DNA of 29,699 bases from Zoopage sp. CT-All (taxonomy: Eukaryota; Zoopagomycota; Zoopagomycetes; Zoopagales; Zoopagaceae). Below are positions 1,357 through 29,699 of this stretch, piece by piece (position 1 is the first letter of the stretch; each line of letters starts with the position of its first letter). Where the stretch lies: positions 1 through 29,699 of the forward strand of contig QZWS01000074.1 of NCBI GenBank assembly GCA_004114245.1, read 5' to 3'. The notes under the pieces were generated by a model that saw nothing but the letters and a program-made list of their open reading frames with translations, was not told the origin of the DNA and ran no database searches. The position numbers and the translations under genes were made by a program.

Positions 1357-2589
1357 CTAGACTGCCCTTGGCAGTTCCTGGATCAGACCTTGCTTGAGGT
1401 CATATCGCAATCGGCTGTGGTAGGCTGCCTTGACTTCTTCCGGCATCCGCTTTAGGTGAACCAGTTCAAAGCTGCCACTGATTTCTGCCATATCCTCCCA
1501 GCAGAACTGACAGAAGACTTGCGACGCCTGCCACTTAGTCTTGGCATTGCGCATCTTGTCACGGTTTGCTGTGTACCAGCGGCAGAGGCGGAGAATTTCA
1601 GCCTTCTTGCGGGCATTGGACCAGACTGCATGCTTGGGTGAGCTCATGTCAAATGAGGCCCAGCGCTCTTCAAGCTGGCAATATCCAGCTGTCTTCTCTT
1701 CCACCTCCTTGCGGAACTGGTCCTCCATGTCTGCAAAGAGCACAAACTTCATACGCGGGCCGCGCGTTGTGTCAATTGTCATACTGTACAGTATAAGAGC
1801 TGCGTCAATACCCATAGCCACCAGCCATCTTTTCATCAAGTAGTCTGGAATGAACTTGGACATCTTGGCAGTCACTTTCACAAGGCAGCAATACGCTGGC
1901 ATCATATAGTCAATGTCAAGGTGACGGAATCTGGTGCTGGCGCTGCCCTCAGTCGACTGCCGTGTCAGCAAGTTTGTCATTGAGGCAAGGACCTGGCTCC
2001 GGCGTGCCTCCGAGTCCTGCTCCTTGCTCGCTTTTCGGATTATATCAGCAATGGACCTAGCACGGTTTGGACAAGAGACAGCGTTACGCTGCTGTGTCGG
2101 CTTGGCTGAAGCACCAGCATACATGTCTAGCGCTGGCTGCTTCTCTGGCTTGTTCTGGATAGGAACTGGCAGTGACAGCAGAGTCTCTCGGAGCGACACG
2201 CCTTGACTCTCGGCAATCATATTATGGGCGTGGATCAGCTTCTGGCCCAGATGGAGGACACCCTCCGACAGCATGCATAGCAAGCTCACAGACAGCGCGC
2301 CAAGCAGCCCTTCCACCACCTCCGCCTTTTCTTCCTTGCTTATTTCATTAATTGCCTTGGCCAGGGTGCAGGCTTTGGCCAAGAAGCTATCTTTGGGGGT
2401 CTTTTCACATTCGGCTTCGCCGTCGGGTGGCACATCGACAGTGAGGGCAGAGTCTGCGGCTCCAGGGTCTGTGCTGGCGGCCGCAGTGTTGGTGGTGACA
2501 GTTGCGGTAGCGGCTAGTCGCGTGATCGGTCGCGGGATGGCCCTAGGTGGCGAGGGGCGTGTCATCGCGGCGGTTTGAGACTGCGACAT
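1357..2589 (-). CDS. LINE ORF1-like (gag-like) protein, 410 aa, intact frame
   Basis: This is an intact 410-codon frame beginning MSQSQTAAMTRPSPPR. The first 60 residues are a Pro/Thr/Ala-rich low-complexity tail. A helical stretch (KEEKAEVVEGLLGALS) follows. A central segment (WLVAMGIDAALILYSM and MKFVLFADMEDQF, about residues 255-295) has the '..alGId...I' plus 'eFl...' pattern of the RRM-like domain in fungal non-LTR ORF1 proteins. A CQFC pair near residue 363 with later histidines could be a degenerate zinc knuckle, but the spacing is not canonical. It lies immediately upstream, on the same strand, of endonuclease and reverse transcriptase remnants, which supports the ORF1 call. ORF1 would bind element RNA. 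An open frame beside a wrecked ORF2 is unusual. The alternative is an unrelated host gene. Confidence 0.55.
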   Translation of the reverse strand: MSQSQTAAMTRPSPPRAIPRPITRLAATATVTTNTAAASTDPGAADSALTVDVPPDGEAECEKTPKDSFLAKACTLAKAINEISKEEKAEVVEGLLGALSVSLLCMLSEGVLHLGQKLIHAHNMIAESQGVSLRETLLSLPVPIQNKPEKQPALDMYAGASAKPTQQRNAVSCPNRARSIADIIRKASKEQDSEARRSQVLASMTNLLTRQSTEGSASTRFRHLDIDYMMPAYCCLVKVTAKMSKFIPDYLMKRWLVAMGIDAALILYSMTIDTTRGPRMKFVLFADMEDQFRKEVEEKTAGYCQLEERWASFDMSSPKHAVWSNARKKAEILRLCRWYTANRDKMRNAKTKWQASQVFCQFCWEDMAEISGSFELVHLKRMPEEVKAAYHSRLRYDLKQGLIQELPRAV

Positions 2590-2606
2590 CCCGATACTCC
2601 GCCAAT

Positions 2607-3581
2607 ATGTCCGCGCAACTCTCCGCAGATGTTCTCGCTATCCCACAGCTCCCGCAGCCTACGGCGTCGATCTGCCCGATCTCTTATTCTAGCGAATACA
2701 CCGCAGTAATGGATAGGGTGCGACAGGCGACAGCGTCGGGCGAGCGCAGCGTGCGCGTGCTGGAATTGACCACGCATGCGGTCTGGCTCAATCCAGCCCA
2801 TTACACCGTTTGGCAAATCCGCCGGGAATGCCTTCAAAAGCAGCTGGAGCAGACCGGTATCGACGTCGCTGCAGAGTTGGCGTTTTGTGGCGCAGTACTG
2901 GACGAGAACCCGAAGAACTACCAAGTGTGGCACCATCGACAGGCAATGCTGGCTATGCACCCAGCCCCGGTCGAGTTGCTGGACGGCGAGCTGTCATTTC
3001 TTCATACAGCGTTCTCGCACGACTCGAAAAATTATCATGCGTGGACATACCGACAGTGGCTGTTGCGGACGTTCCCTCGTGAGCTTTGGGATGCGGAACT
3101 CGCTTGGACAGCGGCACTGTTGCTGGACGATGTGTGGAATAATAGCGCGTGGAACCAGCGCTATTTTGTCCTACACTCGCATCCTAGTGGAGTCAAGGCG
3201 GCGGGAGATGCGTTGGTCGCGGAACTGACCTGGACGCTTCAGCAGGCCGATCGGGCGCCAGCAAATGAAGCCCCGTATAACTACGCGCTTGGGACCGTCA
3301 AGCAGTGCCCTGCCATACTGACTCCTATGCTGCTTGAGCACTGTATGTCTAAAATTGGCGATAATTGGAAGGAATCTATTTCGGATGACCCAGCCGAACT
3401 GCCTCGCGAAGCGTCGGTTAGTCTGTTGCGAACGCTTGTTGAGTTGTACGAGGATCAAGTGCGGTACTTGTCCGATCCGGCGATGACGCGAGAAGTTGTG
3501 GTTTGGTCCCTTAAAATGTTGCAGGCGATGGACAAGGTGCGGGGCAAGTACTGGACTTGGATACTGCAGGGACTGGCATAG
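2607..3581 (+). CDS. RAM2: Protein farnesyltransferase/geranylgeranyltransferase type I alpha subunit
   Basis: This intronless gene encodes 324 aa, near the 316 aa of yeast Ram2. The alpha subunit pairs with Ram1 (farnesyltransferase) or Cdc43 (geranylgeranyltransferase I) to prenylate CaaX cysteines of Ras, Rho and a-factor-like substrates in the cytosol. PFTA repeats are clear: NPAHYTVWQIRR (62-73), NPKNYQVWHHRQ (101-112), DSKNYHAWTYRQ (139-150), DVWNNSAWNQRY (175-186) and a weaker NEAPYNYALG (220-229). They form the right-handed helical-hairpin crescent that wraps the beta subunit. I chose the ATG at 2607 because the frame-open ATG at 2547 would add 20 residues lying inside the LINE ORF1 and unlike the family. 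Only 17 bp separate it from the divergent LINE ORF1 start, so its promoter must lie within retrotransposon sequence. Confidence 0.95.
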   Translation: MSAQLSADVLAIPQLPQPTASICPISYSSEYTAVMDRVRQATASGERSVRVLELTTHAVWLNPAHYTVWQIRRECLQKQLEQTGIDVAAELAFCGAVLDENPKNYQVWHHRQAMLAMHPAPVELLDGELSFLHTAFSHDSKNYHAWTYRQWLLRTFPRELWDAELAWTAALLLDDVWNNSAWNQRYFVLHSHPSGVKAAGDALVAELTWTLQQADRAPANEAPYNYALGTVKQCPAILTPMLLEHCMSKIGDNWKESISDDPAELPREASVSLLRTLVELYEDQVRYLSDPAMTREVVVWSLKMLQAMDKVRGKYWTWILQGLA

Positions 3582-7888: not shown

Positions 7889-10800
7889 TCAACGCTTTCC
7901 ATTTTCAACGCCTGCGGCTAAAGAGCGCTTGTAGTGGTCGGCCAAGAGTTTGGAGACCGAGGCGGGTAATTTCTGAAGAATACGCTAGAGTTGGTGAGCA
8001 GCAAGCACATTGCAGTGAGCAAAAACCTCGTATTTCTCCGTTCCTTTTGACAACGCAAGGAATGCCGTCAGCGCGGCGTCCGTTGAAGTTCGGACGCTTG
8101 GGTTTCGGTCGCGGGCACAATCAAGAAGCACTGGCATAATTCTTACGACCTCTGCATCCAGTAGGTCTCCTGGAGCTGCAGCAGCTCTCTCAATGACACA
8201 GAGAGATGCACAGCGAATTTCGCTAGGCACTTCAGGCATAAGCCAATTCCAGGCCAACTGACAGTGCTCCATAGCGTTGGCGGCGATATCGGGGCTTAGC
8301 AGAAGACTGCTGAAGCAGTCCAGAGCGTTTGTTGCCACCTCAGGATCATCTTTTGATCCCAGGCCATTCACAACCAGGTCAATCAGTCCGATTGCAGAAT
8401 GAATTGCCTCGGCCCGGGTAATATTGATCCGAAGAAGCTCACGAAGAACAGCGAGTCGCATGTCCGTCGACGGGATATTTCTGCTAAGGGTCAGCCAGCG
8501 AATGAGTGTCAAGCTTCTGAGATACCTTATCATTTGGACACACTTTGTCTCATCCGATGCTGAGCAATATCGAGCCATGCACTTGCTGAATGCTGGCGAA
8601 TTTCCTGAAAATTTTGAAGCCAATGCTGCAAAGCGTTAAAGAATTTACCGTTGCTTCGAGCCATGAGGCCGATGAGCAGTCGAGCGACTTGATCGAGTGC
8701 AGCCTCCCCGATACTCCCGGAACCGCCAGCAATGACGCCCTCGATTGCCATTATATACGAGTCTATCTTTTCCTCTTCCGTAGTCGTCGCGGTAGTGACC
8801 AGCTCGCTGACAATTGTATCCAAACGTGGCTGCAAGGGAACAAGAAGGGTCAAATTTCGGCATGCCGCATCGCGCACACGAGGCGAACTGTCGCTCAAGC
8901 CCTTCATATATGTTCGCTGAAGCTGCGGCACGAAGGGCTTTAATAGGGCCAGCGAATGCTCGGAAAGAACACTTACAGACATGAGCGAGCATCCCAAAGA
9001 GATCGAGCTTACTTCAACGCAAGCAAGATGCTTGCCCTGACATCGGAATGGAGCTTTTCGCCAGCGACTCGAATCAACGGGCCAACAACTTGGGCCAAGA
9101 ATGGCTTCAAATGCGCTGTCGTTGTTGTGCGAATTAGAAAACCTGGGTTCGTCAGCGCATACACACTAGAGTTCAATACGAACCAATTCCCTCGGCGGCA
9201 GTTTCCTTTACTCCCATCGAACCGTTCATCAGCGCGTCGACAAACGGGGGCAAAAATGATGCAATTCCCTTTATGATTAAATTTCACATCAATAGAACCG
9301 CAAATAGTCATACGCACCTTTTGCTGGCAAAACGCGGGAACCGGGCTCCCTTTACGAAGGGCAGACTGGAGTCCCTGGCGCGTAACGACGACCAAGACAT
9401 CGCGATCTTCTTTACGAATCGCAGCAGTGAGAGCGCTGAGCGCTTTCCACACAGCAGTGCCGACCTCGACGTCGGGATCGGTAACGATTCGGTACAACGC
9501 ACGTACGTACTCTTCAAATGCCTTGCACCAGGTCATCGAACCCTTGCGCATGGCTGCGGCAAACTCGCATGCCCCAAGGAGGCTTCTCTTGTTGGCAACG
9601 GCACTCATACGCTCAAGATAGTATAGCATGGCATCGGTATCTACCACTGTATCGAGGACAGCCTCGGCAGCCTGCTTGGCACAATCCCCGTCGTTTGCAC
9701 CAGGCGTAGTGAATGCAGATATAATATACTGAAGAATCGGCTCAAAGTTCCGCCTCAACTGAACTTCCGACAGCGGCACAATAGAAGAAAGCAGAGTAAC
9801 GCCGGAAGCGGACACACCATGAGTGCCTAGATATGCGACCACGAAAGGGAACACAACAGCGGGTCTGACGACGGCAATTTCTTTCATCGCCGCCATGGCA
9901 ATGAACGAGCGGCTGCCTTCCAGCAACTTGAACAAGGGTGGAATGACGGCCTCCACAGCCTGGGCTCCACAATGCGCATAGAGTGCGTCAAAGATTGCAA
10001 CACCGGCGGACTGAATCGATGGCGAATCGTCGCAGATTGCCTCCAGCGAAAGACGCGCAATATCCTCGACCGACTCGCTCAAGTCGAGACCAGATGCAGC
10101 ATTGAGAATGGACGATAAGCTGCGTGTAGCCCCTAGGCGGATCGACTCGACATTTGAGTGAAGGCCCTCAGAAAGCATGGGAATGATGATGCGCACGATG
10201 CGTTCGCCGAGCTTTCGAACAACGTCCACCAGAACACGATCGCCGAAAGAGCCCTGCGCTTCATCAACGCCCAGACGCTCGCGTACAAGGGATATGATAT
10301 GCGAGAGAATCTCTTTGAGCGTACGGGGCGTGTTCTGAACCAAAACCTTCCAGATTTGGTTTGCATGCTGGCGAATGGCGCCAACTTCGTCCAAGCGCGC
10401 AATATAGAGACCAGCGAGCAAGGCGTGGGTGCGATCCTTCCCAAGCACATGGACAAGCTTCGCTCGACGGTCAGCATCAGCGATGCCGTCTTCATCTTCC
10501 TCTTCCGTCTGCGACTCGGTGCCAGTGATCTTGTACAGAAGATCGCCAAGAAGCTGAATCGAACTGAGGCGAATGCGCCAATTCTCGTTGAAGAGGCCCT
10601 TTTCCAGCTCGGGAAGCAGGAGTTCGACTGTACTTTGCGGGAAATTGTTGACAATAATCTGACCAGCACGAAGTGCGGCTTCGCGAACATACTCCGATTC
10701 CTCCGCAAGACCTTCCCAGAGTGGACCAATAATGCGCTTGATAAATGGCTCGAAACGCGGACCGTAAGTAAGCGGCATATAGATGATCAAGGAGATGTAG

Positions 10801-13800
10801 CCCTCACGAGCCTGAGGCGTGGACGAGAATGCACTGCTTCCGACCTCCTGCAGGAACATATCTAGACGACTGTCCGGAAGGGTTGCCAGGATTTCGCTGA
10901 TGCCCTGTGCGGCCCCTTGTCGGTCAGCGCTGCCGCAGTCAGACCGAAGTATGGTGACCAAATCTGGAATAAGATTCGAGTAGTGTTCTTCGCCGAGCTT
11001 GCGGACAAGACCACCAAGGGCCCTTGCAGCCGCCGAGCGTGTCTCGGGCACGGAATCAAATAGCGCCTCCTTGAGCGTCGGTATGAAGTCGTAAAGAGAC
11101 AGGTCCTCGCGAAGCGCAAGAGCAGACATGGAGCCTACAATTTGGGCAGACTTTCGCTTGATATCCGAACGACGCTCTTTCAGTCCTCGCGTGACAAGTG
11201 GGACAATAAGCGCCAACGACGGTGCGTCGATGATATGAACAAAGGCCGTCGACAGCAGCCGCCTGAGGGCGCTGTCGGTTTGCATATGTGGATCGCGCAG
11301 TGCATTCATGATCACTGGAATCAGCGAGCGCATCTCGGGACTGGCAACGGTCTGACCAAAGCTTTCAAGAGCATGGGTAGCCGACGCACGCACATTTTGG
11401 TGCGAATCTGTCAGTGCCTCGGCCAACCTTGGAACGACGATAGGAAGGCATGAAGACAGATGCTTTGGCTCACAGTTGGCCATAGCCCCAATAAGCTCGA
11501 GGGCACCTTGCTTGGCCCGCCAGTTACGCTCGGCCAGCGCCTTGAGCAAAATCGGAAGCATAACGCGCACACCGTGGCCGCTCACATGCCGCATAACTTC
11601 TTGCGAACAATCGTTCGCGGCTTCGCGAATTTCGACCTTTCCATCGCCCAGGCAAATGACGAGGCAGGTCAAGATTTGTATACTATAAGGTTCGAACAAA
11701 GTGCCCAAAAGCTCAGACATGTGCTGAAACGCAAAAAGGGCGCCCTGGCGTGCACCTGTGTCCTTCTTGCCTTCAAGTAGATCGACCAGATTGCTGAACA
11801 AACCGCTTGTGCTTAACAGGGTAATCCCTCTGCCTTTGACAACCGCTGCGAGTCCATACGCAGCCCCTTGTCGCTCGGCGTATTTGGTTGATGAGTTCAA
11901 AACCACATCCGTAAATCGCCTCAAATACGATGCTACGTCGACGTTTGCAAGGAGTGGATACAGACAGTCAGCCACTGCGGCCTGCACCACCTCGGACGGG
12001 GTGTCAAGAATCGAGATTAGCTTGTCGACAACTTCTCCGACGCGACGGTCGCTCTTTTGCAAGAAACGAGCGGCACGCCCGTAAAGAATGACCGAGGCAA
12101 CACGCACGGCATCTACAACGCCAGACTTGGCGAGCTGCTGGTCGATAAATTCCAATACCGGCGTGGTGCCGCTCGTTCCAAGGGCATCCACAAGCATTGA
12201 CGCTGCCTTTAGCATTGCCATACGAACACGGGAGTCCTTGTCTCCAAGAGCCGGCAAAATAAAGAAAAAAGACAGTAGAGTGTCGAGGTCATTGACGCCG
12301 ATGAAAGGCGAGAGACCTTCAAATAGCAGTGCAACGTCAACCCGGCTTTGCCACGGGTCGACTTTCTTATCCGTCCCCGGAATGAGCATGCCAAACTTGT
12401 CATATTCGGCTTCCAAGGAGATGATCTGCACAACAAGTCGATTACGCCACATGAAGCGCCACAATGGGGCTCATACCTGCGAGGTGTAGTAAGCTGCTCC
12501 GCAGCGGATGACGTCCGCCATAATCGAGATTTCAGCAAGATCACTGGCAAAAAGGCTTGCAATCGATCGAGCAGCAGCTTGACGGATATGCCCATGGGCT
12601 GACGCTATATAATAGGTAAGCGGTGATTTAATTCTAGCACAGCGAACAGATATGGGGAAGAATCAAATCCCAAGCCGGGGTATCCAATTCATGCTCCGCT
12701 TCAACGTCGAGGGCCAAGCTACGAGTGTCGGCGTTCTCGTCAAACCTGAGAACAAAGATAATCTCATTTCCAGGGTAAATCATGGGAATCTGAGGAAGAG
12801 CCTAATAGACATCGTAGAAGAGCATAAAATGGTAATTGCATACGGCAATAAATATGAGTGCAGCCTGACGAGTATCGACGGACGGCGACTTGGTTGTTGC
12901 GAGAACAAACCGGTACTCATCAACCGTCAGCAGGTCACCGCAAGCATCAGCAAAGGATGCCAAAAATGCATGTGCTTTGCTCGACAAACGAGGATGATTA
13001 CTGATGACCTCAAAAACCAGTCTGAGAGTATCGCTTCGAGGGAATGATTTGCTTGAGCCTAAAGGGTGAGCGAGATCAACGAAAATGATATCCTACCTAG
13101 ACCAGCATGGAAACAGAGTGTCTCAAAGGCCAGCACCGTTTGCTCCGAGGTTGTAGTATCGGCATCGTTGCCTTCCTCGTCGTATTGAGCATTCTCAATC
13201 TCAAGCCCTTCACCATTGCGGCGGATTACTTGGTCAAGGAAGGCAGCAAGAACAGCAAAGAAATCTGCCTCAAACGCTTCAACCTCTGCTGCAAAGCGGA
13301 GGCGATAGAGCACTCTGATAATCAGGCCTATATACAGTTAGTAATCAGCAAGCAAAAATTTTCACTAGCCGGCAAGGGGTTCACTGCACCAGCTTTCTCG
13401 AACAGGAATGTCTTTTAACCGCAAAAGTGCATAGACAAGGGGAAGATGCATAAGTTTGAGGCGTTCAGGGATGCAACTGAAGAAGACTGGGACAACATCC
13501 TCGGCCGCATGCCCAACAAGCAGGTACGCCTTCGGAATGATACGCAGCAGCAACGCCAAATGCTTCTGGACAATGGCCAAATCAATGCTTCCCGGTGTCG
13601 AATGAATTGCTTTAATAAGCTCGAGACCTGTCACTAGATTGAATTTGACGGCAGTCATGTGCACGCGAATTGATGCTTCCTTGGCAAGTTGCTCGCGTTC
13701 AGCTGGGCTGCGCTTGCCTGCTTTTTTCCGTGCTGCCTCCATGAGATCCGCATCCCAATTGGTGCTCGAAGCCATCGTTGGCACGTCCTCGCAGAGAACG

Positions 13801-16325: not shown

Positions 16326-16938
16326 GTGAGGCGACTGCTAAACAGCAGTCAGACGTGCGTCCAAACTCTCTGTATCATGTAGGAGTGCGTCCAAACTCTC
16401 TGTATCATGTAGGAACAGCTACGCCGCTGCCACCGCTGGATCCTCCACTCCCACCGCTACCTCCCCCATCGCCTCCTCCTCCAATCCCGGCAGAACGTGA
16501 CGTAGCCAGCGATCATGATGAGACAGCAGCAGCCCGCGATAACCGGATTGACACAACCATCCGACGTTGGCTGGCAGGCAAATTCGGCAGCTGGCAACCA
16601 ATTGAGAACCCTGCACCAACCGAGCGGGATGCCTAGCGGACCTTAACCCGCACACAGTAGCGGCGGCGGTTCCGGCGCCTCAGGGCGTATCTAGGGGGTT
16701 CTATCGTAGGACGGCAGAATGATAGTGCAATCGGCAAGGATCGGCGGTATGTTTCATTTGTTTCCCGACGGCACCCGCAAGAGCAATGCAGGTATTATTT
16801 CCTGGTGAAAAAAAACAGCAGTCAGACTGCCGCCCTCATAGGCTGGGTAGTAAATCATAATATATTCAAAACCGAATGATTTTGGCTCATTCCTATTACT
16901 TGGATATTCTTGGGATAATTGAGGCATAAGATAATAAT
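16326..16938. other. Spacer between GCN1 start and giant-gene end
   Basis: This holds the GCN1 promoter side and the 3' UTR of the giant gene. A small inverted repeat (GACTGCT..AGCAGTC, 16334-16350) and a 30-bp tandem duplication sit just upstream of the GCN1 ATG. A plus-strand frame, 16355-16636 without an ATG start, reads through the duplication into a run of prolines (PLPPLDPPLPPLPPPSPPPP) and then RRWLAGKFGSWQPIENP. This could be an exon of a small gene, but no 5' exon was found. The AACAGCAGTCAGAC 14-mer recurs near 16813. The remainder to 16938 is AT-rich and shows nothing further. Confidence 0.5.
16355..16414 (+). repeat. Perfect 30-bp tandem duplication (two copies)
   Basis: The 30-nt unit at 16355-16384 (starting GTGCGTCCAAACTC, ending CATGTAGGA) is repeated without a mismatch at 16385-16414. 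Two copies with no spacer indicate a recent slippage or short duplication about 30 bp upstream of the GCN1 start codon. It is not a CRISPR array. Confidence 0.98.
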
Positions 16939-19900
16939 TTAGTGGCTAATAACGCGCGACTGGCGACGCTTCTTGCGGCCTGCACGATGACGGCGTTTTT
17001 TCGTTAGTCCCAACCCGTCGCGCTCATCACCACTACCAACGTCGGAGCTATCCGGCGATCCCTCGGGATGAGCAGCGCCGTTTCCCTCGCTGATAGCCCG
17101 CAGCTCGGGAGCAAATTTCACCGAAATAGGCACAGCCATATCCTTCGCAATCGGATCCAGATCGAGCACTTCCTGCGTATCCACAAACTGGTCCTCGTCG
17201 CTACTACTGCTGACAGTAGCCCGCTCGATTAAAGTGCGGCTAATTACACGGCGGACAACGCGACGGCGGAAAATGTGTCCGCTGGCGAGCATCACGTCCT
17301 CATACGCCTCCACGTCTTTGTCGCCCAAATGATCTTCGTCTTCGTGGACTTCGTCTTCAGTATCCACGATCTGCTCTCCGCCGTCCTCTAAGAAAACAGT
17401 GGAGCGAATGATGCGACGCACGAATCTCGTAGCGCGACCGGAGGTGTTGGCGTCGGCCGAAGCATGCTCGTTCAGCATGCTTTCATCAGTGCTCTGCTCC
17501 ACCACTTCTTCACTTCCATCTGACCTTACGATCACACGCTTCACGACTCGTCTGACAACATGGCGTTTGGTAGAAGAGGCCGTGGTGCCCAGTTCAACTG
17601 CTTCCTCGTGTTCGCTCGTCAAAGGCAGGACGTCCTCATCCATGGTAAGCACATCCTCAGAGCCATCGTCACGGACGACGACCAGCCTGACTGTCCGACG
17701 AATAATCCGCCTTGAGGTCAGCAGTATTCCGCCTTCGGGAATGTTTTCGGACGGATCCTGGCCTTCGAGAAGTTCGTCGGTGGTATCAACAAACGACTGC
17801 TCGCTGTCCGTCGTCGAGATCACTCGCCTGACTGTGCGCATGATCACGACGCGACGCTGCAAGATCGTGGTGGCTCCTGATGCATTTTGCATGACTTTCT
17901 CGATCTGTTCGGCGGGGATGTCTTCCTCGGACTCGACAATATCTGCCTGCCCATCGCCTGTGATTATCGACCGGCGTACAATACGTCTCACGCTGTGGCG
18001 CGAAAGGACGGTTTCCGTGGTATTGCTTGAACTGTTCAAAACAAATGCACCAGACCCTACTCAAGAGTATCAAACAAGCTGTTACAGCAAGTTGTGTCCT
18101 ACCAGTTTGCTTCAAGGTTGATTTCGCGCCTTCGCCCTGGGTCAACACGGCGATGGATCCATTTGCATTTTTATGCGAGAAAACATCGGAGGCAATACGC
18201 GATTGGCGTGACCCACGGCGATGCTTCCTGCCAGCACGGTGCTTGCGCTTGGCAGCAAAAGCTTCGCGCTGTTCAACGGTCATCGTAGCCAGCGTAGCTT
18301 CATCGGCAGATGATTCCGTATCAGAAGTCGCACTCAGAGATTCCGAGACGCCGTGAACGGTAGAGGATTTGAACTTCTTCGCAACAGTATGCACATCTTG
18401 AGTAGCGGCACCCTTGTCTTGTCTACTGCGGCGATGCTTGCGACCAGCACGATGCTTCCGCTTGCTCATGTACACTTCTCGTTGTTCCTCGGTCATATTG
18501 CGTAGTGACTCCTCGTCGACGGAATAAAAAGTCTCGGAAAGAGAGGCATCTGATTCCACGGCGCCGGACCGAGCTGTCTCGGGATCGTCGGAGCTGACTT
18601 CAACATCAACATACGTTTCCGTACCGTCTGCTTGGATCACTACGCGTCGAACGATTCTAGTGACCCGCTTGCGTGAAACGGTGCTGCTGATCGCTGCATT
18701 TGCAGATGCTTGGGTTGACACTGTCAATCAGATTAGACATTATCAAGCGCCAACAGAGCATATACCGAAGGCTTCCTTGGCATTCTGGCTGGATTCAGTG
18801 ACGTGATATGCGTCGACAGACGTCGTGTGCGCCATTTGAGACTGTCGTTTTTTATGCTTCCGGCCAGCGCGATGCTTGCGCCTGGTCTTGTAAATTTCAC
18901 GCTGTTCAAGCGTCATAGCTGCTAACGAGGACTCGTCAAGCGATGCTTCTGAATCAGATTGGGCGCCCGCGATCACATCCACTGAATTGCAGGTTCGCAT
19001 GCCCTGTTCATCCGATATCAATGTACTAGCTTCGGCGTCGCTGACTTCAACATCGACGATTGTTTGTTCACCGTCCGCGGTGGTAACAACTCGTCGCACA
19101 GTTCTTCTTGTAATTGTGCGAGTAGAGGGGGGCGCTTCATCCATCTGAGACGCCGAGGAAGATTTTGCCGGATCGGTGACACCTAAAAGGATATTAGCTG
19201 AGTATGTGCATTGATTATACGCATACCTTGGCCATTGATAGTCCTGAAATCGATCCGTTTTCCATTAGTCTCGCTGGCGGTGGACGAAGGCTCGAGGTGG
19301 GATTGGCGCTTCTTATGCTTGCGGCCTGCCCGGTGCTTGCGCTTCCTCTTGTAAGCTTCAAGCTGCTCAGAGGTCATGCTCATCAGTGTGGATTCGTCCG
19401 CAGATGACTCGGATTCGGAATCAACGTGGGTGACCCGAGTTGTTGCAGAGATGGCTAGAGTGGTCTGGGCAACATCATCGTGGGCAGTGCTTCGAAACGA
19501 ATGGTTGGCTGAGCCGTTGGATTCACATACAGCTGACGCTGCTCGGGCTGCATAATTGGATTCTATCGAGCTCGTCAGCAAAGGGAGTGCGCTGATTAAT
19601 GCCAACCCATGCTTTCGGATACTGCGGATAGGCTTTGGGATTCGCGAGAATATTTCCTGACAGCCAATGAATGCGCACCATCCGTGTGTGACTGGCGCTT
19701 CTTGTGTTTGCGACCCGCGCGGTGTTTGCGCTTGGTCTTGCGTGCTTCATGGGCTTCACGCTCCTGGACCGTCATACCGGCCAGAGCCGTTTCGTCAAAG
19801 GATTCGCTGTCAGATTCGGACGATTCACTCTCGACAAGGGGTTCCACAAGTTGCAGATCACGCGCGCCTGATAATGAAGAGTCGGCATCTGTGACTTCTC

Positions 19901-22900
19901 GGTCTTTCGTCGATGTATCCTCGGAAACCATGGCAGCGACACCTGATGCGACTTGCTTGAGGGCTCCATAAAAGCTAAATCTCGATTGGCCAATATCAGT
20001 CTGATGCGATGAAGAAGTAGTGACTGTCGACGCCTCGCGCGCCAAGTGCTCACTCAACATGGAGTTCATGTCCGTAGTCCTCGTCATGGCCGTTTCCAGC
20101 TTGCGTGAGCTGGTCCCCTCAGCGACCTCTACGACATGCTCTGACCCATCGGTGTGCACCACGGTACGCCTAACAAACCGGCGAATAATCTTGCGAATAA
20201 TAGTCCTTACGCCTGACTCATCCACATGCTCGGAGGTGCTGTTTACCTCGTCCGGCAGACCAACCTCCTCGCTGTCAGAGATAAATGATGTGCCATCGGC
20301 GTGGATAATCGTACGACGAATAATGCGGCGCACAATGCGTTTCGTAATTACCGTATTCCCAGCTTTGTCGATGGTCGTCCCATCAACAATGTCGTGAGAG
20401 TAATCCTGAACAGCATTGGAAACTTCCGTGGTATTTTCGTCAGCTTCCACAGTGCGACATTCACCGGATGACGTCGTAATCACACGTCGAATCACGGTTT
20501 TGACGGTTTTGCGGATGATCAATCGGTTGCCATTGGCGTCGACGGTCTCCACGCAAGATTCAGCGCCGTCAAGTCCGGTGGCCTCGTCTTCAAAAGATTG
20601 GCTTTCTTCCCGAGTGCCATCGGCCCGAATAAGCGTCCTGCGAATGACCCTGCGAACAATGCGTGTCGTTTCGATTGTCTCGCCATCGGCTGTTGTCAAA
20701 AGTCCTTCAGGCACTGACGCTGCTGCCTCGTTCTGAACTTCGTCAACATAACTTTGCGAGCCATCCTCAGTCACGACAATGCGACGCACTGTACGCTTGA
20801 TATACCGGCGAGTGACGAGAATACTTCCGTTTTCGTCGAGGCGCTGCTCGATACCACCCTCTGCTAGACTGTCGGCATCAGTGGCTTCGCGCTCGATGAT
20901 CTGAGAGCTGCCGTCGCTCTTGATGACGGTGATCTGTATCATAGACCTTTCGATGCATTTCCCTTTATGCTAGAATGAAATTAGCAGCAGCCATGATATT
21001 GAGGTTGAGACCCACGGTCCATGAGCTCGATACTTCGTCGCACTGCGAAACGGAGTCCGCTTCTTCGACCTCTGTGCCATCCGCAAGTACAGTCCTCACA
21101 ACTCTTCTCGTCACACGGCGTATGGTGATCTTTTGTCCGTGCTCATCAATAGTCACTTGAACGCCGTCAGTCTCGCCGCCATTATCATTGTCATCCTCAT
21201 CAAATGTCTGCGTAACTTCACTTCCGTCTGCCTTCACAATTGTGCGGGTGACAATGCGACGCACAACGCGCTTTACGGTAGAGCCAGACGCTTCCAAAGT
21301 TCGTTTGCTTTCTGAAGTCGCCTCCGACTGGGTATGTACGTCGGTCCTATTTACCTCGGAATTGTAAACACTACGCCTGGCACTCTTGTGCTTGCGACCA
21401 GCGCGATGCTTGCGTTTTCTCCTATAGGCCTCGCGTTGTTCGATTGACATGCTCATCAGCACAGACTCGTCCGCAGAAGGCTCGGATTCGGACTCAACAA
21501 GGGCGGCTTGGGACTCGCCGGCAAGCTCCAGTGATTGTGCAGTTGTCTCAGTCTCGTCACCGCTGGCAGCGACATTGATGACCGACTCAGTTCCATCGGC
21601 ATTTATCACAGTCCTTCGAACAGTGCGAGTGATGCGCCTATTCGTTACTGAAGCGTGGCTGCTGCCATTCTCATGCGAGTGGGTTTTGGCTTCCGCTACC
21701 GCATGACCGTTGAATGCGTCTGTTTTCTCATTCAAAACGACTGTCCGGGATGAGGTAGTGCTGACTCCATCTATTCGATGTGAGCACACAAAAGTGCATA
21801 CTGAATGCAAACCATTTTTTGCGGACACTGATGAAAGGCTATGGTACTCTTGCGAAATACACTTGACGCTGGATGTAGACAGAGCTTCGATCGGTGCTTG
21901 GCGTTTCTTGTGCTTGCGCCCAGCACGGTGTTTACGCTTCTTCATGTGCGCCTCGCGCTCTTGGATGGACATTGAAGCAAGAGCGATGTCGTCGAGCGAG
22001 TCACTATCAGTGTCAGAAAAAGACTTTTCTGCAGATGCCTCCGCGTAGTCAAGAGCGCGCGATGCTTCAAGGCTTGGGGAGCTCTCCTTCGGGGGAGTCA
22101 CAGCAACAGCAGCTTGGTTGGATTCCATCTGCGTATCCTCAGCAACCAGTGCAACAACTCCAGAGGCGACCTGCTTGAGAGCGCCGAGAATGCTAAATCG
22201 AGATTTGTTTACTTTTGACTCTGCTGAAACGGTAGTTGTTTCGCTCGTCAAGAAGCGATGTAACACGCTGCTCGCGTCAGCAGCCTTGACCAATGACGTC
22301 TCCAACTTGCGCGAGCTGGTCCCCTCAGCGACCTCTGCAGTATACTCTGATCCATCGACATGCACAACCGTGCGTTTAATGAACCGACGAATAATCTTGC
22401 GAATAACAACCGTTGAACCTGCTTCGTCCACATATTCCTGAGTACTGCTTGCTTCCCCAGATTGGCCGGCTTCTTCGTGTTCCGATACGGCCGTAGTACC
22501 ATCCGCATGGATAATTGTGCGTCGCACGATGCGGCGCACAATGCGCTTCGTAATAACCGTATTCCCGGCTTCATCAATAGTCGTTCCGTCAACAATATCC
22601 CTTGACTGATCACTGGCAGCGTCGGTGACTATCGTGGCATCGTCATCGACATCGACAGTGCGAGATTCGCCAGAATGCGTTGTAATGACGCGTCGAATCA
22701 CGGTCTTCACGGTTTTGCGGATGACGATTCGGTTGCCATTGGAGTCCGTGGTCTCCAAGTGTGATTCGTCTGCATCGCTCTCGTCTCCATCATTTACGTC
22801 TTCAAAAGATTGGCTCTCCTCTTTAGTGCCATCGGAGCGGATGATCGTCCTACGAATGATTCTGCGAATAATGCGCCTTGTCTCAATCGTCTCGCCGCTG

Positions 22901-25900
22901 GTGGTTTTCAAAATTCCTTCGGACACTGCTGCTAACGGTACAGGAGCGGACTGGATCTCCTCGACAGCACGCTGTGAGCCATCCTCGTTCACGACAATGC
23001 GACGCAATGTACGCTTGATATACCGACGAGTAACGAGAATATTTCCGTCTCCGTCAAGGCACTGCTCGGTGCCACCCTCCGTTAGACTGTCGGCATCAGT
23101 GGCTTCGCGCTCGATGACCCGAGAGCTGCCGTCGCTCTTGATGACAGTGATTTGCATCATAGACCTTTCCACCGTCTCCGTCTACAAGACCATTAGCAAA
23201 CGCTCAACATGAGAAAATATACCTGTTGCTCGGTGGACGTCTCGCTAAAATGTGAAATAGTAGCTGAGGCAGTCTCATCAACATTCGTGCCATCCGCAAG
23301 CATAGTCCGCACAACTCTTCTCGTCACACGGCGTATGGTGATCTTTTGTCCGTGTTCATCAATAGTCTCTTGAACGCCGTCAGTCTCGCCGCCATTATCA
23401 TTGTCATCCTCGTCAAATGTCTGTGTCACTTCGCTTCCGTCTGCCTTCACAATGGTGCGTGTTACAATGCGACGAATAATTTTTTTAGTGATTGGAGCGG
23501 CAGCTTCAACGACAGTGCTCGACAAAGCCGATTCCGATTCCAAACCGCGAGAAGTCGATTCCATATCATTGGCGTCCACAAACTCGTCGTCGTTGTCAGA
23601 AACGGCGTAAGACTCGGTAGCCCGCGCTTCGGATTCCATATGGTGCTTCTCCTCGGTCACTTCGGTCGCATCGTCAGTGTCCAAGGTGCGAACTACACGG
23701 CGAACTACACGGCGGATAATAATCTTCTGTCCGGTTTCATCGACAGCCTCTGTTACGTCATCCGTGTCGGCGACATCGCCATCTTCTTCAACAGTCTGCG
23801 TCTGTTCACTTCCATCAGCCTTGATAATCGTGCGTGTCACAAGACGGCGAATGACGGTTTTCCTCAGTGGAACAGCTGTCTCCGTAACCGGCAACTCTGA
23901 ACTGACATCAAGGTCACGAGATTGCCCCTCCGAAGCATCAACAAAGTCGTCATCTTCCTCCAGAGTTGCCGTCTGGTTTAATACTGCCGTCGTCTTGCTG
24001 CTGTCGAATTCCGAGCTGGAAACTTGAACTTGGGTTGCTTCACTAGCTGTGCTACTGTGCACAACACGACGAACGACGCGTCGAATCGTAATCTTCTGGC
24101 CCTGCTCATCGAAAGCTTCTTGAACTTGCTCAGATTCCGGCTCACTGTGGTCCAGCTCCATGGTCTGCGTCTCTTCGGTGCCGTCTGATTTGACGATGAC
24201 CCTTGTGACGAGCCGCCGAATTCGCTTGGTTGTAGTTGCAGTTACAGCTGCAGATGAGGCATCGGAAGCAGCTATGTTTTGAGCAGAGACTACGCAATCG
24301 CGCTTTTGATCCGATGCGATTTCCGATGCGTCAGAAGCAGAAATCGAAGATAGAACTACACCACTGGCTTCTTGGACCACAGTAGATGCTGTCTGCTCCT
24401 CAGTTGAGGATTTCACGCCATCATTTTGGACAGTAACCCGTCTAATCACTCGGCGCACAATTTTCTGGCCATGCTCGTCGACGCTTTCTTGGACCTGTTT
24501 CGACTCTTGTTTGACGTCTTTGCCATTGCTCTCCGCTGTTTTCACGGTTTCGCCGCTATCCTCTTTGACCTTTACTCTGGTGATCAGGCGACGGGTGGTG
24601 CGCATTGTAAAAGCGGTAGGCGTATCAGGGCTTTGCTCCGCCTTGGATTTCGTCTCTTTTTCCAGCGATGTCTAATATTTTGTCAGATAATGGTGCACAA
24701 ATCGTTCCGATGGAATACCTCAACGGTCAACGCTTTAGCACTTTTTTTGGCGTGGCTATCGACAGCATCTACGACTAGGGCAGACTTTGATTCTGACTGC
24801 GAGGAAGTGCAACTGCTCTCATCACGGACAGGAAGCTCTTCAATGACAGCAGATCGCTTTGTTAACGCGCCATCACAAGACTTGTCGACTGTGGCTGCTA
24901 CGATCACAGCTGCAACAGGCAGCACTGCAAGCGAGGCAGTAGAGGTAAAAGCCTCGGCTTGCGATGAATGACTCATAGTTTTCTGTGATACTTCAACAAT
25001 TGGCTTGGCAGGAAGCGACGGGGCTTGGATTGGTTCGGCAACTGCTTCTGGTTCCGTCGTGACCTTACCACTTCCAGTGTGGATAATACGCTTTACGACC
25101 TTCTTAACAACAAGAGTACGTTCTCCGTTCTCGCCAACAGTCTCTTCGGCAACGCTGACATGACCACTGGTTTGGTGCATCTCATTTGAAACGTCGCTTG
25201 ACGATAGCTGAGCCACGTGATTCTCGGTTAAGGACAGATCTGCAACTTCAGTCGCTGCATCTTCACCGCCACGATGCCCTTTACGAATAATACGCTTGGT
25301 GATTTTGCGGATAACGACGCGCTCGCCGTGTTCGTTGACCGTCTCCTTCGTCTCATCGACATCGTTTTCATGCCCCTCTTCCTCAGATGTAGCAGTGTGC
25401 TCCGTTCCATCCGCCTTGATCACCGTGCGAGTCACAGTCCTACGCATGAGATAGCCTGCCGTTGCAGCAGCTCCTGCGCCAGAAATGCTGATGGGACACT
25501 TCCCAGCCTCAGCCTGCTGAGAAACATGAGTACCTTTTGAACGAATTCGCTTGCGAGGTACCTTGTGAATCAGGCGGACAATAATTTTGCGGGTGATGAC
25601 ACGCTCCCCAAACTCGTTCAATGATTCCTGCACTTCATCCACGTCGCCTTCGTGCCCCTCCTCTTCTGACACCAATTCTTCCGTCTCGGTACCGTCGGCC
25701 TTGACAATCGTCCGAATAACACGACGACGAATCACCGTAGCAGAAAGGGCTTCCGCGTGGTCTGCGTGGCCATTTGACTTTTCGGTGACAGCAGCTGCGT
25801 GGTCTTGACTAAAATCCTGGACCTTGACCATACCATCCGCACGCTGGCAACTTTGGCGAATCAATCGACGAACGACAGTTGTAGTGACAACACGTTGACC

Positions 25901-28900
25901 AAGCTCGTCAACACTTTCAACCTCTCCTTCGGTCGGCTGGGCCTTCGCATCGCATTCTTCCTCCACCTCCTTGTCCTCGAATGTTCCATCCTTCTTATGC
26001 ACTCGACGACGAATGATTCTGCGAGTAATACGCGTCGTGGTGATAAGCGATCCGTCGCTCTGCGAAGCAATACCTTGCAACAGTACAGCTTTTCCGGTCA
26101 AGGAGCGAGCGACGTCATTCTCGTCGTCTTCGGTAACGCGTTTCGAGCCATCCGCGCCTTGAACTACCCGCTGAATGTGGCGCGTCACAATGGTACGCAC
26201 GATGGTTCGATCGCCAGTAGCAGGGTCGCTACTCTCATTAATCGTTTCGCCTGCACGATCAGAAGCATTTCCGTCTTCGACGACAGGATCCAATATCTCT
26301 TGGGATCCGCTCTTGCGCATGATAGATTTGCGAATAATGCGACGCACCACCAAGCTAGACATCATGCTTCCGCCATCTGGCAAAGCAATCTTGCCGAGGG
26401 TGATTGAAGCAGTGGCAGCACGAACGGCCTCGTCCTGGTGCAACTCTTCGTGGACGTCTTCGCCACCATCAGCTCGCAGGCATTTGCGAATGTTGAATCG
26501 GCGGACCAAAACGCGTGTAACGACGCGATTGCCATCTTTATCGGTCTGCTCGGAGTACTCGTCGCTCTCTGGCGTGGATGGATCGCACTCAACCCAATCG
26601 TCCTTTTCTTCAACGGCTCCATTCTTGCGGTGAATTATGCGGCGCACAATTCGCCGAGTTACGGTTGTGGTAGAAGCCTGAGAGCGTCCGGCCAGGGCAT
26701 ACCGAGACATCAGCACTGCAGAACGACCGGCAAGCTCGCGTGCGAGGGTATCTTCGTCCTCCTCAAGCACGCTTTCGGCGCCATTGGCCTGACGAATGGC
26801 CCGCCGAATTCGGCGCACAATCGTGGTGCGCGTCACAGTGCGTGAACCAGATGCGTCGATGGACTCGATGACAGACTCGCCGGCCTTGTCCGTTGAAGCG
26901 CCTTCCTTAGTTGCCTGCTCAAGGTCTTCGGTTGCACCATTTTTGTGGACAATAGATCGCTGGATCAGACGACGCACGATAAGAGTGGAATTGACAGTGC
27001 TGCCATCCGGGCGGGATTCAGACCCAAGGGTAATTGCCTTGGCTGCGCTACGGACTGCCTCGTCCTGATCTAGCTCGTCATGAACTTCTTGACTGCCGTC
27101 CGAGCGCAGGCGCTTGCGTCGAATATAGCGCCGCACGAGGGTATGCTTTACTACGCGTTCGCCGTGCTCGCCAATTTCCTCAGTGCACTCGTCCGATTCT
27201 GGAGTAGCAGGATCGCATTCGACCCATTCCTCCTTTGTCTCTGTGGATCCATCCTTCTTGTGGATCAAGCGACGTACAATCCGCTTTACAATGCGAGTGC
27301 TAGTCGACGACGAGGCCGCTCCTTGTGCACTGGACGATTTGGAGATGGAAACAGCACCGGCCAGCGCGCGGGCAACGTCGTCCTCTTCGACTTCCTCCGT
27401 CCTTTCAGTTCCATCGGCACGACGAGATAGTTTGTGAATGCGCCGCGTGATTATTGTCTTCATCACAGTGCGCGTTCCGTCGCTGGCGTTGATGACTTCA
27501 CGAACGCTCTCGCCTGCTTTGTCCGAATCAGTGCCATCTTGCACCGTCTCCGCAAGATCCTGCTTGGTTCCATCCTTACGAAGAAGATACCTGACAATGC
27601 GTCGCAAAACAACGCGTGTCGAGGTCGTAGTGCTGCCATCAGCTGACTTGGTGGCGCCCAACGTGATCAGGGGCATCCCGGCGCGAACAGAATCGTCCTG
27701 ATCAAGTTCATCGACTGTTTCTTCGGCACCGCTGGCGTCGAGTCCACGGCGGCGCAGATACCGCCTCACAGTATAATACGTGATCTGGCGAATACCGCTC
27801 GAGTTGGTAGACTCCTCCATGCGGTTACTAATGCAAGACTCGTTGTCGGCGTCCTCCATTTCTTCCGTCTCCTGACGAGTACCGTCGCGCTGGATAATGA
27901 TACGGCGAATTAGGCGACGATAGATGTACGTGGTGACGGTGTTGGTGATGCGCGAGCCAGATCCCTCCGCGATGACAGCCTGCGATTGCTGCTGTTTGCG
28001 AAGCCTTTCCATGCGCTCGATGATCATTTTAGCGGTGGACTCGGTCCAGCTTGTGGCATGATCAATCTCTTTCTTGCCAGAAATGCATAGTTTCGGAAGC
28101 TTGGCAACTTGGCCATTAGCGGTATAGCACTCGCCGGTCTTGCTCGCAACGTCGTCGGCAAAGGCGGCAAAAAGCACAGTCTCGGCGCCCGAGCGGTACG
28201 CCTCCAAAGTCTTGACAGACTTGTTTGTCTCGGCGCCACCGACCAGCACTAGCCGGGTCATAAGACGCTGCGACCAGACGCGGAGCCAGATGATGAGCGC
28301 GAACATAGAGCGGTCATAGCACCAGACTGCGTCGTGTCCTGCCGTCTTGGCGTTGAGATCGAAATCAAACGCGCCCGTAGCGTACTTGTGCGCCCAGGCA
28401 CCGTCGGCGAGGAATATAACGCGGGAAATGCCGGCGGTGTCCTGCAGACGCTTCTCGAACCAATGGGTTAGAAGATACACGCCAATGTGATTAACGGCTA
28501 AATGACGATCGATATCATCCGACGTCATCGCCACAGAGTCCGCAGCACCATAGTAGGCGCAGTGAAAGAGCCCGTTGAGCGCGATATCGCGGTGGGCAAA
28601 GGCATCCACGGCAGCACGGATGCTCATTGGATCGGCGAGATCCAGGAACATAAACTCGGCCTTGCCGGTGTGGACGTCCTTGCTGAGCGTCTCCACGGCC
28701 TTGGCACCGCGCACCGCGTTATTCGATGCAATGAAGACGGTGGCCGAGTGCTGCAGCAGGTGCCTAGCAGCATGGTACCCGATTCCGACGTCGCCGCCGG
28801 TAATGAAATACACCTGCGCGCAGGAGTAAGCACATCAAGCGGGGGCGGGGCGATAGGGTTACCTTTCCCGTGAGCGAAGTGATGAGGTCCGTCGTCCAAC

Positions 28901-28931
28901 GGGTTTTCTTGCGACAGCAGCAGAATGGCAT
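16939..28931 (-). CDS. Giant SDR-pseudoenzyme / RR-DG repeat protein, about 3,862 aa, ten exons
   Basis: Exons on the minus strand: 28931-28863, 28813-24719, 24671-23223, 23181-21813, 21770-21016, 20969-19607, 19562-19227, 19182-18766, 18720-18103 and 18056-16939. They sum to 11,589 nt and close in frame; all nine introns are GT..AG, 41-49 nt. Residues 1-12 are MPFCCCRKKTRW (possible S-acylation site). Residues 20 to about 290 form an SDR fold: TGGDVGIG (28-35), DLADPMS, NHIGVYLLT (131-139), and a C-terminal part like retinol-dehydrogenase/WWOX-type SDRs. The active site is lost: YDRSM (189-193) replaces YxxxK, FLADG replaces the VSS serine region, and FHCAYYG replaces NNAG. About 3,500 residues of repeats with the core RR[IV]xRRx[IV]xxxDG[ST] follow, then eight acidic-Ser plus KRKHRAGRKHKKRQ modules. 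There are no membrane helices. I do not recognise the full protein; a scaffold role is inference only. Confidence 0.85.
16953..21945 (-). repeat. Eight dispersed acidic-Ser plus KRKHRAGRKHKKRQ basic modules
   Basis: Copies of the basic block centre at about 21922, 21401, 19716, 19327, 18867, 18443, 18236 and 16978. Seven are preceded by a Ser/Glu/Asp stretch and a short helix with the form L.[SA]M[ST].EQREAY. Variants include RRKHRAGRKHKKRQ, KRKHRAGRKHRRSRQ and, at the C-terminus, KRRHRAGRKKRRQ. The core HRAGRK is invariant in all eight. The blocks resemble bipartite nuclear localisation or nucleic-acid/acid-binding sequences; the acidic part resembles casein-kinase-2 substrate sequence. These readings are inferred. 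Confidence 0.93.
19607..23470 (-). repeat. 2.2-kb tandem segmental duplication inside the giant gene
   Basis: Exon 4 (1,369 nt) and exon 6 (1,363 nt) are paralogous. Both start ..ERSM(M/I)QITVIKSDGSS, both carry RYIKRT.RRIVV.EDGSQ, DIVDGTTID.AGNTVITKR and VAEGTSSRKLET, and both run from phase 0 to phase 1. The end of exon 3 and the end of exon 5 are likewise near-identical (VKADGSEVTQTFDEDDNDNG, then EHGQKITIRRVTRRVVRT). Landmarks are offset by 2,213-2,218 bp (for example 23331 against 21118). The duplicated unit therefore includes the intervening intron. Confidence 0.93.
25800..27950 (-). repeat. 210-aa (630-bp) four-part super-repeat in exon 2 of the giant gene
   Basis: Four sub-units of about 50 aa alternate. 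A is RRIVRRxIHKKDGS..EEWVECDP.TPESDE. B is LVRRYxRRxxLR.DGSQEVHDELDQ, ending A.xITLG. C is VRRxIxRSIVxKxG..EDLE, ending DKAGESV.E. D is TIVxRRIxRxxxxADGxExxxEED, ending AR.LAG. A-type cores lie at about 27.91, 27.27, 26.64 and 26.01 kb, a constant spacing near 630 bp. This gives three full ABCD blocks and a partial fourth that grades into diverged units. The DNA copies are diverged, so the array is old and held at the protein level. Confidence 0.9.
28011..28931 (-). other. N-terminal lipid-anchor-like motif and inactive SDR domain of the giant protein
   Basis: Exon 1 encodes MPFCCCRKKTRWTTDLITSL, then TGK. Exon 2 resumes VYFITGGDVGIGYHAARHLL. The LTGKvyfITGg.vGIG pattern with the downstream landmarks LDLADP, VNHIGVYLLTHW and GAETVLFAAFADD..SGECYT-like text is typical of the atypical-RDH/WWOX group of SDRs. 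The cofactor loop is intact, so nucleotide binding may survive, but three catalytic-site elements differ from consensus. The usual basic residue after beta-2 (ACR) is replaced by ASN. Cys4-6 followed by RKK resembles known palmitoylated N-termini. Binding and lipidation are inferred. Confidence 0.75.
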
Positions 28932-28993: not shown

Positions 28994-29061
28994 GCGCGGT
29001 TAATGAGATAGCGCGGTTGGTGAGATAGCGCGGTTGATGAGTGGGCGCGGTTGATGAGCGA
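28994..29061. repeat. 17-bp x 4 minisatellite upstream of the giant gene
   Basis: Four consecutive 17-nt units begin GCGCGGTT (28994, 29011, 29028, 29045), with consensus GCGCGGTTGATGAGNNN. They lie 63-130 bp upstream of the giant gene's ATG, a plausible place for multimerised factor-binding sites, though simple slippage is equally possible. Confidence 0.9.
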
Positions 29062-29256
29062 GCGCTGGTATCGAGCGTCGAGGGACAGCCGGATATAAAC
29101 AGCGTGGGTGGCGCGGGATGGGATGCGGCGGCGGGCTGGATGTTGCCTTCGGCGACTTGCAAATTGGAGAGAAAATGAAATGCGAATTTCGGACTATTTA
29201 TTGCCCTGGGACCCAGAGGGTCGTGGTTAATTGGATATTCAGCAAGCATGCGGAGA

Positions 29257-29294
29257 GTGGAATGCATGCAGGAAAGTGGAATGCATGCAGGAAA
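29257..29294. repeat. 19-bp tandem repeat, two copies plus a partial third
   Basis: The 19-nt unit GTGGAATGCATGCAGGAAA occurs at 29257-29275 and 29276-29294, followed by a diverged partial copy (GTGCAATGCCTG). Each unit contains the palindrome TGCATGCA, a possible binding site in the divergent promoter region. Confidence 0.9.
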
Positions 29295-29503
29295 GTGCAA
29301 TGCCTGTATTTGCGAGTGGATTGGTATTACAGAAGGTGCGCCTAAATGTCTACCTTGTATATATGTGTGTTTTTGTTTTGAAACTGCCTCTTCAGCATTT
29401 AGTGCATCCCTGCAACATATGCGTTGTTTAGTCTTTATACTGAGGAACAATCAGAAGGAGGGTATGTACACTTGAGTACTGAATCATCTTCTTTACTCCA
29501 TAT

Positions 29504-29699
29504 ATGCCACCCCCAAGCTCCGCAGAGCCAATTTCGCTATTAACATCGAGCGACGGGGGGTCGTCGACGCCCAATTCTCCCGAAATCGTCGTCAAGAGGA
29601 AACGGCTGGTGCAAGGGCGGCGCCGTCAGCGACTCGAGGACGAGAGCTGGGCCGCTGCCGACGTGGTGCATCTGATCGAGTCGCTGACGGCGCCGCCCT
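29504..29699 (+). CDS. Partial gene, 5' end only (65 codons), runs off the right edge
   Basis: From the ATG at 29504 an open frame runs to the end of the window without a stop: MPPPSSAEPISLLTSSDGGS, then STPNSPEIVVKRKRLVQGRR and RQRLEDESWAAADVVHLIES. It has a Pro/Ser-rich start, a basic patch (KRKRLVQGRRRQR) that could be a nuclear signal, and the beginning of a helix (WAAADVVHLIESL). G+C content rises sharply here. The last 85 bases contain a perfect inverted repeat, so the terminal codons may not be genuine. The family cannot be named. Confidence 0.5.
   Translation, partial: MPPPSSAEPISLLTSSDGGSSTPNSPEIVVKRKRLVQGRRRQRLEDESWAAADVVHLIESLTAPP
29614..29699. repeat. Perfect 24-bp inverted repeat at the window's right end
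   Basis: Bases 29614-29637 are the exact reverse complement of 29676-29699, with a 38-nt loop. The right arm ends on the last base of the window. It lies inside the partial coding frame. Confidence 0.97.

Follow-up and report, generated by a model that had tools for sequence, protein, structure and literature searches.

A predicted giant fungal repeat protein with a head derived from short-chain dehydrogenases

What is encoded by a gene in which a short-chain dehydrogenase/reductase (SDR) domain is joined to a very long, highly charged repeat tail, and is this one gene at all? The window, i.e., the whole stretch of DNA that was analyzed, is one entire contig of 29,699 bases; its parent assembly of 8.62 Mb in 419 contigs has fungal gene content (two Chitin_synth_1 and five Zn_clus matches). 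The reading that is developed here, to which we assign slightly less than an even chance, is that the product of one fungal gene is a structural tether of 3,862 residues with a membrane-held pseudo-SDR head, a charge-zipped hairpin ribbon and docking modules. The gene product was classed among the giant repeat proteins, with a pseudoenzyme as its head.

The genes adjoining the giant gene are of ordinary types. A GCN1-like HEAT-repeat gene with several exons lies on the minus strand (window 9009-12464 and 7985-8623), and a protein prenyltransferase alpha subunit is encoded in one open frame on the plus strand (window 2547-3581, PPTA, E 4.6e-32). A further open frame on the plus strand (window 29504-29699) is divergent from the giant gene and reaches the contig end; the two may have a common promoter region. 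Short tandem repeats with units of 17 and 19 bp are present upstream of the giant-gene start (window 28994-29065 and 29246-29303), and past its 3' end a 30-bp unit occurs in two perfect copies (window 16355-16414).

The gene model consists of the following features:

16939..28931, minus strand: whole gene, ten exons, 3,862 aa (splice signals and frame, codon usage, dN/dS)
28931-28863, 28813-24719, 24671-23223, 23181-21813, 21770-21016, minus strand: exons 1 to 5
20969-19607, 19562-19227, 19182-18766, 18720-18103, 18056-16939, minus strand: exons 6 to 10
21771..21812, minus strand: optional in-frame intron of 42 nt, picked to line up with the intron 19606-19563 of the other duplicate copy

The predicted ten-exon model starts with an ATG at 28931, and its stop codon ends at 16939. 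The introns were placed manually, guided by splice signals and by the frame. All nine are 41-49 nt long, and in four of them CTAAT is present a short distance ahead of the acceptor. First-guess introns of 64 and 60 nt broke the frame or fitted more poorly and were replaced by introns of 46 and 44 nt. The 42-nt intron (21812-21771) has a length divisible by three, and its retention would yield a protein of 3,876 aa. The model of 3,862 residues plus stop agrees with the 3,863 codons in ten exons that had been counted in the preliminary description. The statement that no open frame spans the whole gene was likewise correct, yet exon 2 alone (4,095 nt, 1,365 codons) is one open frame that contains 17 repeat units behind the SDR head. 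The fusion of head and repeats is therefore independent of splicing. The model frame has no internal stops, whereas the two other sense frames contain stops in all exons except the 69-nt exon 1. Synonymous codon usage, with the adjoining GCN1 and prenyltransferase ORFs as training set, ranked the model frame first among the three sense frames in ten of ten exons, but with small margins, and in six exons (3, 4, 5, 7, 8 and 9) an antisense frame scored higher than the model frame. Taken alone, codon usage is thus weak support for the model frame.

The tail is characterized by repeat units, three stretches of which are listed here:

25013..27943, minus strand: first array of hairpins at residues 314-1290, with 17 units, of which the initial 12 form three blocks of four units (about 210 aa each)
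26681..27310, minus strand: block of four units (residues 525-734), for which antiparallel beta strands were modelled (AF2 pLDDT 86.0, pTM 0.70)
17320..18018, minus strand: final four hairpin units, in exon 10

The units were anchored on the turn glycine, and 43 units were kept by eye from 67 regex anchors; the anchors left out were basic modules, the head and loose matches. About 1,100 aa of 50-aa RR..DG repeats in four-part blocks had been described before. The blocks are real in exon 2, with unit spacings of 51/53/53/54, 51/53/52/54 and 51/53/53/54, but the extent had to be revised, and the 43 units are spread over residues 314-3734 (17, 5, 6, 3, 6, 0, 1, 1 and 4 units in exons 2 to 10). 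An HMM built from the 17 exon-2 units only detected 24 domains at iE<0.01 in residues 1389-3862. The HMM built from all 43 units detected 44 domains at this threshold and seven weaker ones in the real protein, which contains the units on which it had been trained, in contrast to shuffled tails, which contained zero domains in 18 of 20 cases and one domain in the other two. One unit, at residue 1412 (HMM 0.0039), falls outside the 43. In total, 1,885 of the 3,562 tail residues, slightly more than half, are outside the units.

All 43 units share one plan, in which a basic strand (RRhhRRhh) is followed by an xDG turn and then by an acidic strand. In the consensus, basic pairs alternate with hydrophobic pairs, followed by [K/R]-A-D-G-[S/T] and an acidic stretch. 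The mean net charge per unit is +5.2 ahead of the turn and -4.8 behind it (43 units). The charge of the tail is thus ordered strand by strand, beyond the mere balance seen in the whole protein (549 K+R and 634 D+E of 3,862 residues).

Structure prediction for a 210-aa block had been proposed in the preliminary description, and AlphaFold2 (AF2) indeed modelled residues 525-734 as long antiparallel strands. The pLDDT values of the five models ranged from 69.9 to 86.0, and values of at least 90 were reached in only 53 of the 210 residues. The model contains two helices, both in inter-unit stretches. The alignment consisted of seven non-overlapping rows, all from the giant gene; an alignment of 15 overlapping blocks was discarded because its rows were self-aligned. 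In the strand ahead of the turn, the hydrophobic period has its peak near 85 degrees; taken alone, this would allow an amphipathic helix. Strands are favoured over a helix because of the content of Val, Ile and Thr, the xDG turn and the AF2 strands. The units are predicted to be antiparallel beta hairpins, paired across strands by Arg and Glu, that continue as a beta meander. Foldseek and VIA fold searches yielded no convincing match. Several Pfam matches (RHH_9 in three of seven blocks, best 0.0025, Hpf1_C, Herpes_UL3 and others) were disregarded because of their weakness.

Additional information on the tail came from an internal duplication:

21733..23498, minus strand: duplication copy 1, residues 1780-2340 (62% amino acid identity over 550 codons, dN/dS 0.31)
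19513..21285, minus strand: duplication copy 2, residues 2490-3050 (copy comparison; DNA repeats D3-D6)

The internal exon duplication that had been noticed before is a tandem duplication of about 2.2 kb. Over the 550 aligned codons dN was 0.28 and dS was 0.92. The resulting ratio indicates that the frame is under purifying selection at the protein level; it was lowest in the hairpin part (0.25, 294 codons) and was 0.33 in the basic-module part (163 codons). The substitution pattern between the copies supports the reading frame, and an outside orthologue is not needed for this comparison. Introns are shared as well. A phase-0 intron is found just before ERSM in both copies, offset by two codons in the alignment, and a phase-1 intron after the basic module is located at the same aligned codon, an agreement with some circularity, as the choice of the 42-nt intron had been guided by its counterpart.

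These results bear on an earlier proposal that the protein is a scaffold or forms condensates and has a membrane or nucleotide-binding head. A scaffold with a dinucleotide-fold head fits. The strand-by-strand charge alternation and the AF2 beta strands favour a folded ribbon in the units over a fully disordered condensate; this alternation, like the missing catalytic residues of the head, was not part of the earlier proposal. The alternative is a disordered polyampholyte, i.e., a tail without a stable fold that undergoes charge-patterned phase separation. It would agree with the balanced charge and with the large part of the tail outside the units, but it is unlikely in view of the ordered strand-turn-strand plan, the block pLDDT of 86.0 and the fact that dN/dS is lowest in exactly the hairpin part. 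The disorder reading survives for the linkers outside the units.

The second element of the tail is a short basic module:

21906..21972, 21384..21450, 19700..19766, 19311..19377, minus strand: basic modules 1 to 4 (DNA repeat D1)
18850..18916, 18430..18496, 18217..18283, minus strand: basic modules 5 to 7 (DNA repeat D1)
16942..16989, minus strand: basic module 8 at the C-terminus, where the acidic lead-in helix motif is missing

Eight acidic/basic modules had been reported. Eight basic modules were found, with eight near-identical copies of the core [KR]R[KR]HRAGRK, and the acidic lead-in is present in seven, which come after an acidic Ser-rich stretch and the motif M[ST]xx(E/Q)(E/Q)xE; the last module ends the C-terminus. 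Pfam and NCBIfam assigned no family to the module-bearing tail ORFs except Fibrinogen_aC, which is located in the hairpin part. The near identity of the eight HRAGRK modules and the acidic Ser-rich stretches ahead of seven of them would be in accordance with a nucleic-acid or nucleolar scaffold, in which the modules would do the work and the hairpins would serve as spacers. We regard this as improbable, although the arguments against it are weak: the module ORFs lack an assigned family, and the N-terminal CCCRKK suggests a membrane.

The N-terminal part of the protein contains two features:

28914..28922, minus strand: Cys-Cys-Cys, residues 4-6 (MPFCCCRKK), candidate S-acylation site (from the sequence)
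27974..28813, minus strand: SDR-derived head, residues 24-303 (Pfam adh_short 5.7e-12, alignments, AF2)

The SDR domain of the preliminary description was confirmed by Pfam (adh_short, 46 bits versus a cut-off of 26.6). The cofactor motif TGxxxGxG is kept as TGGDVGIG. In comparison with L007, an intact SDR of the same genome, NNAG is changed to HCAY, VSSGA to LADGA (the catalytic Ser is gone) and YGQSK to YDRSM (the lysine of YxxxK is gone), and the PG segment after the catalytic strand is a gap. In NCBIfam, the best 25 of 113 families were all far under their cut-offs; the best model, PRK06197.1, covered head residues 3-184, and matches extended only to about residue 185. The AF2 model of the head (pTM 0.80, mean pLDDT 74.8) was confident over about the first 80 residues and poor at about 141-160 and 191-260. 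The plainest reading is that the head is SDR-derived, looks catalytically dead and possibly still binds a dinucleotide. An active dehydrogenase on a long tether could account for the Pfam score and the TGxxxGxG motif, but it is very unlikely, because the head has lost NNAG, the PG segment and two catalytic residues (Ser and Lys), and because the NCBIfam matches end early and stay far under the cut-offs.

The nearest paralogue of the head that was found in the genome (C259:7310-8071, L025:1339-2385) is 33% identical to it. Its motifs are HAAN, LVDSK and YSRSR, i.e., NNAG and the lysine of YxxxK are missing, and its open frame stops at 348 aa and lacks a repeat tail. The YSRSR motif implies that the loss of the YxxxK lysine predates the giant gene or recurs outside it. 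Head and paralogue are perhaps members of a small family of SDR pseudoenzymes.

The least probable alternative is a gene-model artefact with head and part of the tail as separate genes, to which we give hardly any credence although the model is a prediction with hand-placed introns, because exon 2 is common to the head and 17 units, one repeat family runs across the junctions with introns of only 41-49 nt between them, and introns match at nearly equal places in both duplicate copies.

Homologues were sought among candidates that were selected by shared 5-residue words and length range. The exon 2 query (7,999 candidates scored) and the full-protein query (2,032 candidates scored) both gave no match at E<=0.01. 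A profile of the head and its paralogue gave six matches at E<=0.001 among 8,000 scored candidates, generic SDRs only; the best was a Merluccius polli protein named DHRSX (E 2.5e-21, 38% identity, 39% of the query covered). These searches do not establish an orphan gene, because candidates needed shared words and a fitting length. Across the genome assembly the repeat had 18 matches, all on its own contig (12 candidates scored), and within the assembly it was found only in the giant gene. A genome search for Tcp10_C and Fibrinogen_aC gave no match at E<=0.001; it carries no evidential weight, as the controls matched nowhere and a second search missed the giant gene. Among the titles listed in literature searches, none described the protein. 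The earlier statement that no named family is known with this combination agrees with candidate sets limited by length range and shared words, and within these limited searches the repeat appears to match no well-described family.

Four known systems were compared with the giant-gene product. Classical SDRs (retinol dehydrogenase, DHRSX and PRK06197-like) have the N-terminal Rossmann half and TGxxxGxG in common with the head, which differs in that it is without catalytic residues and is joined to a giant tail. NmrA-type SDRs are another SDR branch, and these regulatory relatives lack a giant tail, unlike the giant-gene product. For them, the use of an SDR-related fold for control is described in PMC3314646, the reference list of which cites work on the discrimination of oxidised and reduced dinucleotides.

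The third system is the fibrinogen alphaC domain (PF12160; PDB 2jor, 2baf), which has a similar local strand-ADG-strand sequence. PF12160 matched the ORF 20965-23172 with 29.7 bits versus a cut-off of 22, was under the cut-off in the ORF 19596-20942 (18.2) and was absent from the Pfam matches listed for the remaining tail ORFs. On the seven blocks it matched two at E<=0.1. Against PDB sequences, the ORF 20965-23172 matched only fibrinogen alphaC fragments up to E 1 (2jor 0.0047, 2baf 0.028). A profile of 39 units (the 43 without those anchored at 1849, 1889, 2559 and 2599) gave 0.12 for 2jor and 0.32 for 2baf, and a surface protein of streptococcal origin, which is unrelated, ranked between the two at 0.3. 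One tail exon thus appears to match the alphaC hairpin weakly. Fibrinogen is a vertebrate blood protein, and a Cys pair flanks its alphaC hairpin; nothing corresponds to this pair in the aligned query stretch, which contains no Cys. We read the hairpin motif as probably arrived at independently of fibrinogen. Self-assembly of alphaC regions was not relied upon, because a direct involvement of these regions in fibrin polymerisation is argued against in the title of PMC7186824.

The last system is the TCP (G-box) domain of CPAP/SAS-4 (Tcp10_C, PF07202), an analogy in the way of working for the repeat units. According to PMC3776556, it is a beta meander that stands free as a single layer, has type I turns between its roughly 20 strands and lacks a hydrophobic core. 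In the AF2 model of the block, successive long strands are predicted. Tcp10_C scored 14.7 bits versus a cut-off of 36, i.e., under it (E 0.024), and matched two of the seven block rows (best E 0.0027). CPAP was absent among the matches listed by Foldseek and VIA, which excludes nothing. We read the TCP domain as what may be the best mechanical analogy, not as kin.

Taken together, the reading as a structural tether is supported by the fusion in one frame, the lost catalytic motifs, the charge order of the units, the AF2 strands, the dN/dS of 0.31 and the alphaC match. Counting against it are the seven-row AF2 alignment, the 85-degree period, the unconvincing fold searches, the E of 0.12 for fibrinogen and the more than half of the tail outside the units. 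According to the tether reading, S-acylated N-terminal cysteines (CCCRKK) would hold the head at a membrane, and the head may still bind NAD(P)H or a partner. The hairpin arrays would be a long charge-zipped ribbon, linking partners or self-associating by exposed strand edges, and the basic modules would dock on acidic partners such as nucleic acid, a membrane or an acidic protein.

A bolder version, which we consider rather doubtful, is that the units represent a novel class of repeat. They would form a natural beta meander, freestanding and very long, in which salt bridges between alternating basic and acidic strands replace the hydrophobic core, and an SDR pseudoenzyme would carry this meander and anchor it, or sense it via NAD(P)H, at a membrane. 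If the fold holds, charge pairing and not a core would keep together a natural array of beta hairpins of great length, with a design near that of the TCP domain of CPAP, which is described as unusual. A metabolic enzyme fold would then also have been recruited, once its catalytic residues were lost, to head a giant structural protein.
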